Assembly: GCA_003222395.1 (NCBI GenBank)
Contig: QHWB01000048.1
Location: 1-64,000, forward strand
Length of the DNA: 64,000 nucleotides
Origin: Acidobacteriota bacterium
GTDB lineage: Bacteria > Acidobacteriota > Vicinamibacteria > Vicinamibacterales > CAVVIG01
Direction: 5' to 3'
In this document: piece by piece, positions 37,647-42,986 of the stretch
How positions within the stretch are numbered: position 1 is the first letter of the stretch
How the letters are laid out: the number at the start of each line of letters is the position of its first letter
The notes under the pieces: generated by a model
Database searches by the model: none
Told to the model about the DNA's origin: nothing
What the model saw: only the letters and a program-made list of their open reading frames with translations
Translations under genes and position numbers: made by a program

Positions 37647-37698
37647 CCCTCCTGCCTATCCAGCCCCTCCTGCCTATCCAGCCCCTCCTGCCTTTCCT
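37646..37698. repeat. Tandem C/T-rich repeat, three units of about 18 bp
   Basis: Units of GCCCCTCCTGCCTATCCA type are repeated three times, the last diverged. The repeat fills the gap between nfo and the AMMECR1-like gene, and the minus-strand stop codon of the latter (TAG, 37674-37676) arises from the repeat unit, so it encodes that protein's Gly/Ala-rich end. Confidence 0.8.
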
Positions 37699-38243
37699 GC
37701 CGCTTCCGCCTCCCCAAACACCTCCGCCTCGAAGCGCCACATCTTCGCGCCCTTCCGCCATGCGTCGTTCGGCAGTCCCGCCTTGCGGCAGGTGTGAGCG
37801 AGGAACGTCTCGGCGTCCCATTGCCACTCGGTCGCCACCTGGGGGAGCAGCAGTCCGCGGCGCCAGCCGATTTCGACGACGAGGCCGTGGCGTCCGACTG
37901 CAATGTCGGCCGGACCGGTGATCGCTTCGAGCGGTCCGAGGAGCGAGAGCTCGATGTCGAGATGCGGCAACTCCGACGCGGTGACAGGCGGAAACCGCGG
38001 ATCGGTGCTGCACGCCGCCACGGCGCACCGCGACACGACGCGGGCGAGCGGCTCGTTCGCCTCGATGTGGCCGATGCAGCCGCGCAGATCGCCGCGGTTA
38101 TGCAGCGACACGAACGCGCCGCCGAGGCGCGCGCACACGTCCGCCAGCGAAGGCGCCGGCGGCGGCGCGGCGCCGACGTGCGCCGCGATCGCGTCGCGCG
38201 CGAGCTGCAGCAGCAGCGCGCGGTCCGCGTCCGACGTCATCAC
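37674..38243 (-). CDS. AmmeMemoRadiSam system protein A (AMMECR1 domain)
   Basis: The 189-aa product has the AMMECR1 signature LRGCIGHIEA (about 53-62), followed by DPRFPPVTASELPHLDIELSLL and GLLLPQVATEWQWDAETFLAHTCRKAGLP. The cysteine in LRGCIG is conserved. The biochemical role is not established. It overlaps the MEMO-like gene by 4 bp. The third usual component, a radical SAM protein, is not in this window. The C-terminal tail AGKAGGAG is encoded by an intergenic tandem repeat. Confidence 0.93.
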   Translation of the reverse strand: MMTSDADRALLLQLARDAIAAHVGAAPPPAPSLADVCARLGGAFVSLHNRGDLRGCIGHIEANEPLARVVSRCAVAACSTDPRFPPVTASELPHLDIELSLLGPLEAITGPADIAVGRHGLVVEIGWRRGLLLPQVATEWQWDAETFLAHTCRKAGLPNDAWRKGAKMWRFEAEVFGEAEAAGKAGGAG

Positions 38244-39064
38244 GAGAAGGTTCCCATCGCGGCGGCGAGGTAGCCGACGACCGCCGACTTGTCGCCCGAC
38301 ACGTCACCCGAATCGGCGTACTGGAGCACCACTGAATCGCGCGCGCCAAGAAGGCGCGCCGCGCGCATGACGGCGACCGTCGGCCCCCCGCCACACGCAT
38401 GCTCGGGCTGCGCGACCAGCGCGCGCTGCAGGCCGTCGGGATCGAAGCGCGACACGCAGTCGGCCACCACGCGATCGAGCGCCGCGGCCGTCAACGCATC
38501 GTGATAGTGCGACAGATCGGTGCTGGCGATGACGAGCGCGTCGCGCCTGTACAACACGTCGGCGAGCGCGTCGCCGAGCGCGCGTGCCGTCTCCTCGGTC
38601 TGGTATCCCATCACCAGCGGGACGATCGTCGCGCCCGGCGCGAGCCGTTGAACGAACGGCAGCTGCATTTCGAGCGAATGCTCGCGCGCATGCGCCGCGG
38701 CGTGCTCGCGGACGATCGGCGTCGCTTTCATGAGCTCCGCTGCGCACTCGTCGTCGATTCTGGCGACGCCGAACGGCGTCTCGAAGCCGCTGCCCGGATA
38801 CAGCGCGACGCCGTTGAACGCGACGTAATGGGACGGCCCCACGAGAACGACGACGTCGAAGCGGCGATCGCGCAGCAGCTGGTACGCGTGCGCCGCGACA
38901 GGACCCGAGTACATCAGCCCGGCGTGCGGCGCAACGAGCGCGACCAGGTCGCCGCCGATCTCGCGCGTGGCCGACGCGAGATGACGATCGACGGCCGCCG
39001 CCAGCGCCGGCGCGGTGCCGGGATACCAGGTCCCGGCGACGGCCGCCCTTCGAACGTTCGTCAT
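38240..39064 (-). CDS. AmmeMemoRadiSam system protein B (MEMO1 family)
   Basis: The 274-aa product has conserved histidines in VAPHAGLMYSG and VGPSHYVAFNG, a region REHSLEMQLPF and a cysteine in EHACGGGPT, matching MEMO1-type proteins related to class III extradiol dioxygenases. The active-site geometry could bind a metal. It is the first gene of the pair. The divergent gatC lies 79 bp away, and this short region (39065-39143) also holds repeated AGCTGAC words. Confidence 0.93.
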   Translation of the reverse strand: MTNVRRAAVAGTWYPGTAPALAAAVDRHLASATREIGGDLVALVAPHAGLMYSGPVAAHAYQLLRDRRFDVVVLVGPSHYVAFNGVALYPGSGFETPFGVARIDDECAAELMKATPIVREHAAAHAREHSLEMQLPFVQRLAPGATIVPLVMGYQTEETARALGDALADVLYRRDALVIASTDLSHYHDALTAAALDRVVADCVSRFDPDGLQRALVAQPEHACGGGPTVAVMRAARLLGARDSVVLQYADSGDVSGDKSAVVGYLAAAMGTFS

Positions 39065-39143: not shown

Positions 39144-39440
39144 ATGTCGTCCGGGTTCACGCGCGAACAGGTCGCGGCCGTCGCGGCGCTCGCCAACCTG
39201 AGGCTCGAGGTCTCCGAGCTCGACCTCTTCGCGCGCCAGCTCGGCGACATCCTCGCGTACGCGGCGGAAGTCCAGCAGATCGATACGACGGGCGTGCCGC
39301 CGACGGCCACGGTCGTCACGCGCCACGCCGCCGATCGCGACGACGAGGTGCGGCCGTCGCTCGACCGCGAGACGGCAATCGCCGCCGCGCCGGATCCCGC
39401 CGTGGATGCCGGGTTCTTCAAGGTGCCGCGAGTCATTTGA
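39144..39440 (+). CDS. gatC: Glutamyl/aspartyl-tRNA amidotransferase subunit C
   Basis: The 98-aa protein stabilises the GatCAB complex that converts misacylated Glu-tRNA(Gln) or Asp-tRNA(Asn). Family features: FTREQVAAVAALANLRLEVSELDLFARQLGDIL and the C-terminal FFKVPRVI. It overlaps gatA by one base (TGATG), so translation is coupled. gatB is not adjacent. Confidence 0.95.
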   Translation: MSSGFTREQVAAVAALANLRLEVSELDLFARQLGDILAYAAEVQQIDTTGVPPTATVVTRHAADRDDEVRPSLDRETAIAAAPDPAVDAGFFKVPRVI

Positions 39441-40951
39441 TGGACAGCCCACAGGTGGTCGCCGACATTCGCGAGGCGGTGCGATCGCGCGCGCGCTCGG
39501 CCACCGACGTCTGCCGCGACGCGCTCGCCCGCGTGGCGGCCCTGAATCCCGCGCTCAACGCGTTCAACACCGTCGTCACGGATCGGGCGATCGCGCGCGC
39601 GGAGGCCATCGATCGCGATCCCGATCGATGGCGCGATGCGCCGCTCGCCGGCGTTCCCGTCGCGATCAAAGACAACCTGTGCACGCGCGGCGTGCGAACG
39701 ACCGCCTCGTCGCGCATGCTCGAGCACTACAGTCCGCCGTACGACGCCACGACCGTCGCGCGCCTCGAATCCGCCGGCGCCATCGTCATCGGCAAGACCA
39801 ACTGCGACGAGTTCGCGATGGGATCGTCGAACGAGAACTCCGCGTTCGGTCCCGTGCGCAACCCGTGGGCGCTCGATCGCATTCCCGGCGGCACGAGCGG
39901 CGGATCGGCCGCAGCGGTCGCCGCGCGCATCATTCCGCTCGCGCTCGGATCGGACACGGGCGGATCGATCCGCCAGCCGTCGGCGATGTGTGGCGTGGTC
40001 GGTCTGAAACCGACCTACGGCCGTGTGTCGCGATATGGGCTGATCGCACACGCGTCGTCTCTCGATCAGGTCGGTCCGATCGCGACGCGCGTGCGCGACG
40101 CCGCCGTTGCGCTCGGCGTCATTGCAGGCGGCGACGGCGCGGACGCGACGACTGCCTCCGAAGCCGTGCCGGACTACGGGTCCGCGCTCACGGGCAACGT
40201 GCGCGGCACACGCATCGGCGTCCCGCGGCGGCTGCTCGAGCAGGGCGTGGATCCGGACGTGGCGCGCGCGTTTTTCGCAGCGCTCGACGTGCTCGCCTCG
40301 CGCGGCGCGACGCTGACCGACGTGGAGCTGCCGCACGCGCGCTACGCGATTCCGGTCTATTACCTCGTGTCCACGGCCGAAGCGAGCTCGAATCTTGCGC
40401 GATACGACGGTGTGAGGTACGGATTCCGCGCGAAGGGATCGCGAGAGGACGGTCCGGCCCGAGCCGCGCGGGCAGACGGCGACGAGGCGTCATTGCAGGC
40501 GATGTACGGCCGGACGCGGGCGTGCGGATTCGGGCCTGAGGTGAAGCGACGCATCATGCTCGGAACCTATGTGCTCAGCGCCGGGTACTACGACGCCTAC
40601 TACCTCAAAGCGCAGCAGGTGCGCACGCTCATCCTGCGCGACTACGAGCAGGCGTTCGATTGCGAACGCGGCGTCGATGCGATTGCGATGCCGACGAGTC
40701 CGGTTCCGGCGTTCAAAATCGGCGAGCGCGTCGATGATCCGCTGCAGATGTACCTCGCCGACGTGTTCACCGTGAGCGCGAACCTCACCGGCTTGCCGGC
40801 GATCAGCGTCCCCTGCGGCTTCAGCGCAGGCACGTTGCCGATCGGACTGCAGCTCACGGGACGCCGGTTCGACGAGCCGTCGCTCCTGCGACTCGCCGAC
40901 GCGTACGAACGCGACACTGAATGGTGGAAACAGCAGCCTCCGATCGCGTAG
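39440..40951 (+). CDS. gatA: Glutamyl/aspartyl-tRNA amidotransferase subunit A
   Basis: The 503-aa amidase subunit releases ammonia from glutamine for transamidation. The Ser-cisSer-Lys triad is visible: Lys in VAIKDNLCTRG, cis-Ser and Ser in GGTSGGSAAAVAA and DTGGSIRQPSA. The ATG at 39440 overlaps the gatC stop and gives the standard length; in-frame sequence upstream of it is gatC in another frame. Its 3' end overlaps the following metallopeptidase gene by 31 bp. Confidence 0.97.
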   Translation: MDSPQVVADIREAVRSRARSATDVCRDALARVAALNPALNAFNTVVTDRAIARAEAIDRDPDRWRDAPLAGVPVAIKDNLCTRGVRTTASSRMLEHYSPPYDATTVARLESAGAIVIGKTNCDEFAMGSSNENSAFGPVRNPWALDRIPGGTSGGSAAAVAARIIPLALGSDTGGSIRQPSAMCGVVGLKPTYGRVSRYGLIAHASSLDQVGPIATRVRDAAVALGVIAGGDGADATTASEAVPDYGSALTGNVRGTRIGVPRRLLEQGVDPDVARAFFAALDVLASRGATLTDVELPHARYAIPVYYLVSTAEASSNLARYDGVRYGFRAKGSREDGPARAARADGDEASLQAMYGRTRACGFGPEVKRRIMLGTYVLSAGYYDAYYLKAQQVRTLILRDYEQAFDCERGVDAIAMPTSPVPAFKIGERVDDPLQMYLADVFTVSANLTGLPAISVPCGFSAGTLPIGLQLTGRRFDEPSLLRLADAYERDTEWWKQQPPIA

Positions 40952-41964
40952 CGTCGTCTGACTGGACGGCGCTCGGCGACGAGCAGCTCCTCGACGTCCG
41001 CATGTGCGATCTCGCGCTGCGGATCGAAGGCACGGACCTCGAACAGCGCATCGCGCAGATCAACGCGGAGCTCGACGCGCGCGGCCTGCGGTTCCGCCCG
41101 CATTACTGGCTCGCGGATGAATGGTTCACGCCCGACGGCGTCCCTGGCGTCGCGATCCCGTTCTATCTCGCGCATCCGCGCCTCGCGCGTCTGGAGCTCG
41201 CGCAGATGCTCGAGGTCGAAGGGGGCGATCCCGACTCGTGCCTCAGGATTCTGCGTCACGAGGTCGGCCACGCAATCGACAACGCGTACCGGCTGCGGCG
41301 ACGCCGGACGAGGCGGCGGCTGTTCGGCAACCCCGGGATCGAGTATCCGGAGTACTACACGCCGAAGCCGTACAGCAAAAGCTTCGTCCACCATCTCGAT
41401 CACTGGTACGCGCAAAGCCATCCGGACGAGGACTTCGCCGAAACGTTCGCCGTGTGGCTCGATCCCGCGTCGATGTGGGCGACGCGCTACGCCGGGTGGC
41501 CGGCACAGCGCAAGCTCGAATACATGGATCGCCTGATGCGGCTGCTTTCACGCGCGCGGCCGAAGGTCAAGTCGAAGCGCGAGGTCGATCCGCTCCGGCG
41601 GCTGAAGAAGACGCTTCGCGAGCACTATCGCAGGAAGCGCGAGCACTACGGCCTCGATCACCCCGACTTCTACGACAGCGATCTGCGCAATCTGTTCTCC
41701 GACTCGCCCGAGTACGCGAAGAACCTGCCGGCCGCGCGGTTCGTGCGCAGGATCCGCAAGGACGTGCGCGGCCGCGTGGCGAGCTTCACCGACAGCTATC
41801 AATACACGATCGATCAGCTGCTCGAAAAAGTGATCGAGCGCTGCCGCGAGCTCAACCTGCGGCTGATGGATTCCGAAGAGGAAACGAAGACGGACTTCAT
41901 GGTCTTCCTCACAGTGCAGACGATGAACTATCTGCACAGCGGGCGGCACCGGGTGGCGCTGTGA
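40921..41964 (+). CDS. Putative zinc-binding metallopeptidase paired with an ATP-grasp enzyme
   Basis: The 347-aa cytoplasmic protein (no signal peptide) has the gluzincin-like site HEVGH at 113-117 and a probable third ligand in DEDFAETFAVWLDP about 50-60 residues later. The surrounding FRPHYWLADEWFTPDGVPGVAIPFYLAHPRL and the basic C-terminal half (RRLKKTLREHYRRKREHYG) look like a conserved zinc-binding peptidase family of unknown role. The start at 40921 lies inside gatA (31-bp overlap). The stop overlaps the ATP-grasp gene by 4 bp, so the pair is translationally coupled. Confidence 0.85.
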   Translation: MVETAASDRVASSDWTALGDEQLLDVRMCDLALRIEGTDLEQRIAQINAELDARGLRFRPHYWLADEWFTPDGVPGVAIPFYLAHPRLARLELAQMLEVEGGDPDSCLRILRHEVGHAIDNAYRLRRRRTRRRLFGNPGIEYPEYYTPKPYSKSFVHHLDHWYAQSHPDEDFAETFAVWLDPASMWATRYAGWPAQRKLEYMDRLMRLLSRARPKVKSKREVDPLRRLKKTLREHYRRKREHYGLDHPDFYDSDLRNLFSDSPEYAKNLPAARFVRRIRKDVRGRVASFTDSYQYTIDQLLEKVIERCRELNLRLMDSEEETKTDFMVFLTVQTMNYLHSGRHRVAL

Positions 41965-42986
41965 CCAAACTTCGCGTGCTCGCGCTGGTCCACCGTCACC
42001 TGATTCCGCCCGCGACGGTCGACGAAGGCACCGACGTCACGTCAGCGCCGTGGCGCACCGAGTACGACGTCATCTCGACGCTGACCGCGATGGGGCACGA
42101 AGTGCGGCCGCTCGGCGTCCACGACGACCTTGGCGAAATCCGCCGGCTCGCCGACGAATGGAAGCCGCACATCGCGTTCAACCTGCTCGAAGGGTTCGAC
42201 GACGTGACGATCTTCGACCAGAACGTCGTGTCGCACCTCGAGCTGCTGAAGCTGCCGTACACCGGCTGCAATCCGCGCGGTCTTCTGATGGCCCGCGACA
42301 AGTCGCTCTCGAAGAAGCTGCTCGCGTACCATCGCATCGCCGTACCGGAGTTCGAGGTCTGCCGCATCGGACGCCCGATACGCCGCCACAAGCGACTCAC
42401 GTTTCCGCTCATCGTGAAGTCGTTGACGCAGGAAGCGTCGATTGGCATCTCGCAGGCGTCGGTCGTCGACACCGACGAGAAGCTGAACGAGCGCGTCACG
42501 TTCATCCACGAGAGCATCGGCACCGCGGCCATCGTCGAGCAGTACATCGAAGGGCGCGAGCTGTACGTCGGCGTCATCGGCAATCAGGTGCTGCAGGCGC
42601 TGCCGGTGTGGGAGCTGTTCTTCACGAACATGCCGGAAGGATCGAAGCGGATCGCGACCGACCGCGTGAAGTGGAGCGTCAAGTACCAGAAGAAGTACGG
42701 CATCGACAGCGGGCCGGCAGTGGAGCTCGCGGACGGACAGGCGGAAAAGATCCAACACCTTTGCAAACGCGCGTATCGCGGCCTCGAGTTGAGTGGGTAC
42801 GCGCGCATCGATCTGAGGCTGGACGAAGGGGGCAATGCATGGGTCCTCGAAGCGAACCCGAATCCGCAGATCGCGAAAGGCGAAGACTTCGCGGCCTCAG
42901 CCGAGAAGGTGGGCCTCAGTTACGAAGGGGTGCTGCAGCGGATCATCAACCTCGGGCTGCGATGGCAGCCTGAGAGTTTCGCGTGA
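41961..42986 (+). CDS. ATP-grasp ligase related to D-Ala-D-Ala ligase
   Basis: The 341-aa product has a preATP domain (residues 1-100), then ATP-grasp features: LLMARDKSLSKKLL, FPLIVKSLTQEASIGIS, AAIVEQYIEGRELYVGV, and metal-ligand segments ARIDLRLDEGG and LEANPNPQIAKGEDF. The last replaces the EVNTLPG type seen in true D-Ala-D-Ala ligases, so a different carboxylate or amine substrate is likely. The GTG start at 41961 overlaps the peptidase stop as GTGA. Together the two genes look like a build-and-trim pair for a peptide bond, but no substrate is known. Confidence 0.88.
   Translation: MTKLRVLALVHRHLIPPATVDEGTDVTSAPWRTEYDVISTLTAMGHEVRPLGVHDDLGEIRRLADEWKPHIAFNLLEGFDDVTIFDQNVVSHLELLKLPYTGCNPRGLLMARDKSLSKKLLAYHRIAVPEFEVCRIGRPIRRHKRLTFPLIVKSLTQEASIGISQASVVDTDEKLNERVTFIHESIGTAAIVEQYIEGRELYVGVIGNQVLQALPVWELFFTNMPEGSKRIATDRVKWSVKYQKKYGIDSGPAVELADGQAEKIQHLCKRAYRGLELSGYARIDLRLDEGGNAWVLEANPNPQIAKGEDFAASAEKVGLSYEGVLQRIINLGLRWQPESFA

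Follow-up and report, generated by a model that had tools for sequence, protein, structure and literature searches.

A linked gene pair for a gluzincin-like putative zinc protein and a predicted ATP-grasp ligase of D-alanine–D-alanine ligase fold in several bacterial phyla

The joining of an ATP-grasp ligase with a peptidase is already known in kind. Tubulin tyrosine ligase (TTL), for example, is an ATP-grasp enzyme. In eukaryotes, this ligase, which acts on a protein tail, is opposed by the gluzincin MATCAP/TMCP, according to excerpts of the source (PMC10499314). In the operon for N-acetylglutaminylglutamine amide (NAGGN), which comprises asnO, ngg and a peptidase gene, synthetase and peptidase genes serve one small product (PMC8070244, in extract). 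Here, we describe a locus with another such pairing from an acidobacterial genome (GenBank assembly GCA_003222395.1). It lies on contig QHWB01000048.1, in a stretch of 64,000 nucleotides (positions 1 to 64,000, forward strand; hereafter the window), and consists of a gene for a HExxH metallopeptidase-like protein, PEP, followed by a gene for a ligase-like ATP-grasp protein, GRASP (Table 1). The two resemble the NAGGN operon in their synthetase-plus-peptidase layout, but belong to different families on both sides; to the tubulin system they are likened by enzyme kind.

In sequence and fold, the closest described relative of GRASP is D-alanine–D-alanine ligase (Ddl; TIGR01205, NF002378; PF07478), with which it has the entire fold in common, together with the ATP- and Mg-binding residues (Lys, Arg, Asp, Glu and Asn). 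However, GRASP falls below both Ddl cut-offs, the N-terminal loop and the HGxxGEDG motif of Ddl are changed, the acceptor Ser is replaced by Glu, and a canonical Ddl is encoded elsewhere in the genome. PEP is related to Peptidase_Mx (PF15887), a putative zinc-binding metallopeptidase family that likewise combines HExxH with a downstream Glu block, but its long helical C-terminal part lies outside the match. Its core also resembles the lethal factor catalytic domain and the Pro-Pro endopeptidases. These proteins are secreted, whereas no signal peptide is evident in PEP, which carries the additional C-terminal part. The two families as a conserved unit were not seen in the literature searched: no description of a PEP-GRASP pair was found in the open-access literature, a scope that does not include the ATP-grasp amidoligase survey published by Iyer and colleagues in 2009, where the pair may already have been mentioned. 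Automatic annotation may label GRASP as D-alanine–D-alanine ligase via remote similarity; the evidence presented here speaks against this label.

Table 1. Features of the window and of related loci (positions in the window unless a locus label is given).
Feature	Position	Strand	Remarks
gatC	39144-39440	+	TIGR00135, 63 bits against a cut-off of 47.1; housekeeping, outside the module
gatA	39440-40951	+	TIGR00132, 572.1 bits against a cut-off of 481.1; housekeeping, outside the module
PEP	40921-41964	+	HExxH metallopeptidase-like, 347 aa; partial PF15887 Peptidase_Mx match
HEVGH zinc motif	41257-41271	+	PEP residues 113-117
E174, within the YAQxHPxEDxAETF block	41440-41442	+	invariant in 38/38; putative third zinc ligand
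GRASP	41961-42986	+	ATP-grasp ligase with Ddl fold, 341 aa from a GTG start; PF07478, 2.1e-26
E297-A-N299-P-N-P ... E308-D309	42849-42887	+	Mg-binding Glu/Asn kept, Ddl acceptor Ser replaced by an acid pair
msrA in locus L150	5186-5770		
msrA in locus L164	5256-5888		
msrA in locus L111	10364-10876		plus 14 more loci
KamA cluster in locus L095	7576-11340		also in L100, L242, L246, L092; partial in L252, L248, L091

The linkage of PEP and GRASP points to a shared product and to a module that is carried as a unit by several bacterial groups unrelated to each other. When the genome collection was scanned with the PEP alignment, at least 570 relatives were confirmed, and counts of named loci refer to the best 80 of these (L and G denote loci and genomes). 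Most of the 80 come from records of Acidobacteria, Nitrospirae and Planctomycetes, with single loci labelled Methylomirabilis, Nitrospinota, Gemmatimonadetes, Deltaproteobacteria and others, some of these bin names being doubtful; not all are independent (L135 and L153 share an assembly, and L123, L178, L179 and L193 duplicate loci of the phylum surveys). In 77 of these 80 loci, PEP is followed on its own strand, at a distance of no more than 400 bp, by a GRASP gene that is either complete or truncated where the contig ends. In the three exceptions (L138, L149, L190), GRASP is found elsewhere in the genome, in the case of L190 as a fragment and a remoter copy.

The same picture emerges at the genome level. 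In Nitrospirota, 20 of the 118 genomes searched carry both genes, one carries PEP only and none GRASP only (Fisher p 1e-21); the corresponding numbers for 149 Planctomycetota are 33, none and two (p 5e-31), and those for 199 Acidobacteriota are 42, eight and five with loose cuts (PEP E ≤ 0.001, GRASP E ≤ 1e-40; p 3e-29) and 28, two and two with strict cuts (PEP 1e-70, GRASP 1e-75; p 2e-29), all p values ignoring phylogeny and relatedness. A reading of the window from its sequence alone (the sequence-only reading) had proposed that ligase and peptidase form a pair, and had suggested a survey of whether the two families always co-occur. They do so mostly, among the best loci and in all three phyla, and linkage and co-occurrence together support the pair.

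Within Nitrospirota, PEP is present in 21 and GRASP in 20 genomes, and 23 of 24 PEP places adjoin GRASP; the lone PEP-only place is a 156-aa remnant with an internal stop (G461:C10:7406-7873), in a genome with no GRASP at 1e-80. Planctomycetota have PEP in 33 and GRASP in 35 genomes. Only 26 of their 35 PEP places are adjacent to GRASP on the same strand and yet all 33 genomes keep both, so that a split operon still retains both genes. The planctomycetal cut of 1e-80 (alignment A2) also lets in some tandem ATP-grasp genes from beside KamA genes (L242, L246, L252; see below), so that G245 is perhaps wrongly counted as GRASP-only; three PEP-bearing genomes (G211, G228, G289) each have an additional GRASP in a KamA-free locus. 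The arrangement is most varied in Acidobacteriota: among 56 PEP places, 32 have a same-strand GRASP within 300 bp, one an abutting GRASP in the opposite orientation, five a convergent abutting one (L077, L088, L089, L257, L258), one a GRASP truncated at the contig end (L075) and three a GRASP 4-18 kb away on the same contig. The eight genomes counted as PEP-only with loose cuts include five with an abutting convergent GRASP that scores below the cut and one with a contig-end-cut GRASP, which leaves G034 and G045, the latter holding a PEP fragment with two stops. With strict cuts, the PEP-only genomes are G028 and G131. Loss is lopsided: GRASP-only genomes exist, PEP-only genomes are absent from Planctomycetota and, in Nitrospirota, limited to the remnant. 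This is consistent with PEP acting on the product of GRASP.

Both genes have also been inherited together. Tree distances of PEP and GRASP correlate with r 0.92 over 103 pairs, a value reached in none of 500 permutations; this set remained after dropping duplicates (L123, L178, L179, L193), short matches and gaps above 400 bp. In alignment A2, the GRASP of L084 was left out (stop codon), several distant rows were trimmed, and a few unlinked GRASPs, e.g., L081, L082, L094 and L098, were included. Four genomes hold two pairs each, and in seven of these eight copies the three nearest relatives of PEP are also those of GRASP (in the eighth, two of the three coincide). Apparent fusions of the two genes (L066, L069, L070, L072) were rejected: the long open reading frames (ORFs) are overlapping open frames, and the coordinates put the genes in different frames.

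PEP has the features of a gluzincin-like zinc enzyme, as far as its residues indicate. The Pfam match to PF15887 (7.2e-8; 32.6 bits, above the gathering cut-off of 27) covers only residues 111-182, i.e., 72 of 347, and profile positions 90-166 of 236. Within it, R112, H113, E114, G116 and H117 are invariant in 38 of 38 aligned sequences, and a downstream block, Y163-A-Q-x-H167-P-x-E170-D-x-x-E174-T-F, is shared across the same set, with E170 and D171 likewise invariant. The gluzincin signature of HExxH and a downstream Glu (H113, E114, H117 and E174) is present in all 38; the role of E174 as third zinc ligand is one that we carry over from other gluzincins. In the predicted structure (predicted local distance difference test, pLDDT, 87.5), residues 29-212 align with the lethal factor catalytic domain (5d1t; Z 9.1, root-mean-square deviation (rmsd) 3.4, 142 aligned residues, 12% identity) and with PPEP-3 (9g3t; Z 8.1, rmsd 3.8, 137 aligned, 18% identity), both Z values being moderate and the aligned rows spanning 28-212. 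A Foldseek search of the PDB with the model returned no hit at E 0.001, and the lethal-factor family PF07737 scores 12 bits, below its cut-off of 27.4. The structurally aligned chains barely extend into the C-terminal helical part (about 213-347). The sequence-only reading had described an HEVGH peptidase without signal peptide, and indeed the motif is in place and the N-terminus, read directly from the sequence, is polar and lacks a hydrophobic stretch. Since no signal peptide is apparent, as judged from the residues rather than by a predictor, PEP should act in the cytoplasm. It is a single-copy gene in the genome of the window, as it is in 32 of the 33 Planctomycetota and 18 of the 21 Nitrospirota that carry it.

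The predicted structure of GRASP (pLDDT 91.4) aligns end to end with DdlB (8evy; Z 32.9, rmsd 2.5, 297 residues). Its scores, however, are far from those of a Ddl: 107 bits with TIGR01205 (cut-off 245.65) and 123.7 bits with NF002378 (cut-off 243), and for all 25 Ddl and Van models listed it stays far under the respective cut-off. The separate Ddl of the same genome reaches 366.4 and 278.7 bits with these two models, and a TIGR01205 match at E ≤ 1e-60, a level that GRASP does not reach, is present in all 50 PEP-bearing acidobacterial genomes. Among the 103 pair-linked GRASPs, K114, R199, E200 and E218 are kept in all, R282 and D284 in 101, and K153, E297 and N299 in 100. The fold together with K114, K153, R282, D284, E297 and N299 agrees with an ATP-grasp carboxylate-amine ligase. 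The LEANPNPQ motif (residues 296-303), to which the sequence-only reading had drawn attention, indeed stands where the genome's own Ddl has NELNTIPG.

GRASP also differs from Ddl in individual motifs. For Ddl residues, we assume the functional roles commonly ascribed to them: the N-terminal GG-S-EHE loop presumably binds the first D-Ala, and S281 of E. coli DdlB, which we take to be equivalent to the Ser position replaced in GRASP, presumably holds the carboxylate of the second. For comparison, 26 Ddl were chosen from 30 same-phylum loci by a motif (Mg-binding Asn, Pro-Gly, Gly-Ser turn), whose columns are conserved by construction; the acceptor-Ser column is not part of it. Nine positions past N299, all 26 Ddl have Ser and 89 of 103 GRASPs have Glu; one position further, all 26 Ddl have Met and 97 of 103 GRASPs have Asp or Glu (three gaps). 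The loop GGxS-EHE(IS), each residue of which is found in 25 or 26 of the 26 Ddl, is not kept in GRASP: in the gappy alignment of its columns, one Gly is present in 74, Ser in 19 and the first Glu in nine of 103. E34 of GRASP (95/103) might substitute for the loop Glu. The HGxxGEDG motif is largely replaced, with its Asp kept in 91 of 103. Because the carboxylate-binding Ser of Ddl is Glu in GRASP, an acceptor held by its carboxylate at this site is unlikely. A housekeeping Ddl is ruled out by sequence, given the scores, the own Ddl of the genome, the loop and the acceptor Ser; with the cut-offs missed and Ser exchanged for Glu, GRASP also looks, in sequence, unlike a maker of D-Ala-D-Ala, an activity that the earlier reading had taken into account.

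The resulting hypothesis, to which we give an even chance, is that the PEP and GRASP genes make up a portable module of two, whose enzymes belong to one pathway, that the acceptor is rich in amines and that PEP trims or turns over the product. GRASP would activate a carboxylate as an acyl phosphate with ATP, as Ddl does, and then join it to an amine. A free amino acid bound through its carboxylate is an improbable acceptor; more probably, the acceptor has an additional amine or positive charge, as would be the case for a diamine, a basic amino acid or a peptide. PEP, as a putative cytoplasmic zinc enzyme, might then hydrolyse the amide formed by GRASP or an adjacent bond, by which the product would be matured or recycled. 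A more specific version of the hypothesis is held more tentatively, as rather less probable: a make-and-unmake pair for an undescribed amide or peptide on a cationic acceptor in Nitrospira, Planctomycetota, Acidobacteriota and others, whose ligase is a Ddl offshoot with inverted acceptor-site charge, served by a dedicated cytoplasmic gluzincin. Environmental bacteria of at least three phyla have kept the unit together, which implies that a real metabolite or modification stands behind it. Moreover, a system of only two enzymes lends itself to simple reconstitution, and GRASP provides a natural experiment in the re-purposing of the Ddl acceptor site.

Several observations weigh against the two-gene module, in addition to the neglect of relatedness in the p values. 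Two acidobacterial genomes from the close group (G125, complete on a single contig, and G077) have GRASP but, at strict cuts, no PEP, so PEP is not always needed by GRASP-bearing genomes. No GRASP is found near 14 of the 56 acidobacterial PEP places (the flanks of those in G085 and G045 being unread), and the loose acidobacterial count takes in genomes with only KamA-linked GRASP matches, e.g., G021. Three convergent, divergent GRASPs (L077, L088, L089) lack the acid pair, and acceptor use may differ between GRASP subfamilies. Nor is the second acid restricted to GRASPs of the pair, because NPLPG-type partners in the KamA clusters have Pro-Glu at the acid-pair positions in five of six cases (Thr-Ser in the sixth; register uncertain). 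Finally, no neighbour pointing to a substrate was recognized among the pair loci, whose neighbour-gene clusters are annotated in part.

The alternative that ranks next, though we consider it unlikely, is a protein-tail cycle: GRASP would attach an amino acid to the end or a side chain of a protein, and PEP would remove it, as TTL and metallo-detyrosinases do in eukaryotes. The msrA gene, found near the pair in different phyla, would suit such a cycle, as msrA acts on proteins and peptides, and the C-terminal part of PEP could bind a protein. The enzyme kinds are also the same, since the TMCP/MATCAP detyrosinases are gluzincins in the parts of PMC10499314 consulted. However, the Foldseek match of PEP to MATCAP is not significant (E 5.6), no target gene was recognized beside the pair, and GRASP is a compact protein that small-molecule ligases of the Ddl type match over its full length. 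Ranked behind this cycle, and likewise improbable, is a dipeptide-like compatible solute or store that the ligase builds and the peptidase recycles, comparable to the NAGGN osmoprotectant. The portability of the pair and the mostly single-copy state of PEP are compatible with it, but NAGGN is built on other protein families, no osmotic link was seen, and the GNAT gene of the KamA cluster was not found beside pair-linked loci (asparagine-synthase genes were not searched for).

A variant of the cell wall has poorer prospects still. VanA makes an altered D-Ala-D-X precursor and VanX removes the normal one, and GRASP and PEP could be imagined in these respective roles, given the Ddl fold, the remote similarity to Ddl and Van ligases, and the vicinity of PEP to a canonical ddl gene in one acidobacterial family. 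This is countered by the own Ddl of each PEP-bearing acidobacterial genome and by the loss of the Ddl loop and acceptor Ser from GRASP. Least of all do we expect a graspetide-type maturation of a genome-encoded precursor peptide. ATP-grasp enzymes and zincin peptidases do meet in some graspetide loci, according to excerpts of PMC8939145, but GRASP is Ddl-like, and among the short ORFs within 600 bp on either side of the 103 pairs, each of the eight largest families listed is confined to one lineage. A graspetide-like precursor gene beside the pair was rejected on this basis. The two-gene module with an amine-rich acceptor stays our preferred explanation.

In the window, the pair is preceded by gatC and gatA, which are ordinary housekeeping genes by their NCBIfam equivalog scores. 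As the sequence-only reading had stated, the four genes overlap in series, by 1 bp (gatC/gatA), 31 bp (gatA/PEP; 28 bp if PEP starts at the GTG of codon 2) and 4 bp (PEP/GRASP). Its further claim, a coupling to gatCA, did not hold: gatB of this genome lies on a separate contig (C14), and gatA adjoins the pair in only eight of 162 loci searched, some of which are cut by contig ends, and in no other. These eight represent seven distinct contigs (the window, L102, L103, L121, L122, L124, L133 and L101, the last on the contig of L123), and PEP is at least 74% identical to that of the window in all of them. Since gatA stands beside the pair in these close relatives only, gatCA is an incidental, local companion, and as a neighbour of one lineage it was ruled out as a functional partner of PEP and GRASP.

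Other recurring neighbours of the pair are mostly lineage-bound as well. The only one seen across phyla is msrA (TIGR00401, 192.6 bits against 108.1), which is present in 17 of the 162 loci searched; this is a common gene, so we regard it as a lead only. In 16 of the 17 loci, all from Nitrospirota and Acidobacteriota records, it lies 0.1-4 kb upstream of PEP on the same strand, and the seventeenth, on a Gemmatimonas-labelled contig, is on the opposite strand (L115 and L178 are one contig). A cluster of class-III aminotransferases that appeared to cross phyla was rejected as a mixture of a glutamate-1-semialdehyde aminomutase-like protein (L137) and acetylornithine-type transaminases (L143, L150). 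A role in phage defence or as mobile cargo was discarded likewise, as no PADLOC or PHROG match was obtained at 0.01 and PEP had no counterpart among plasmid or phage records at 1e-5.

Some lineage-specific arrangements were observed in addition. In many Nitrospira-labelled loci (e.g., L148, 4387-5804), a gene similar to low-molecular-weight phosphatases lies upstream of PEP in 14 of the 80 best loci, and a divergent PP-loop ATPase gene in 19 of the 80. A calcineurin-like phosphoesterase (PF00149) precedes GRASP in four acidobacterial genomes (L093, 5599-6579; L094, L107, L255), with a 4-bp overlap in L093; in these genomes GRASP and PEP are not neighbours. PEP and a canonical ddl share a contig, 7-11 kb apart, in four genomes belonging to a single acidobacterial family (G180, G122, G085, G196; loci L090, L076 and L099 stand for three of them), and no GRASP of the pair kind was found next to PEP there (the flank in G085 being unread). 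Just upstream of gatC in the window, and divergent from it, two overlapping minus-strand genes (37674-39064) look to us like AMMECR1 and MEMO homologues.

A separate cluster combines genes for a KamA-type radical SAM aminomutase and a GNAT acetyltransferase with a tandem pair of Ddl-like ATP-grasp genes. No description of such a cluster was found in the titles and abstracts of the literature searched. Its GRASP relatives of the NPNP or NANP type have Ala-Gly or Ser-Gly at the acid-pair positions in seven of seven cases, and its product may be a beta-amino-acid peptide.

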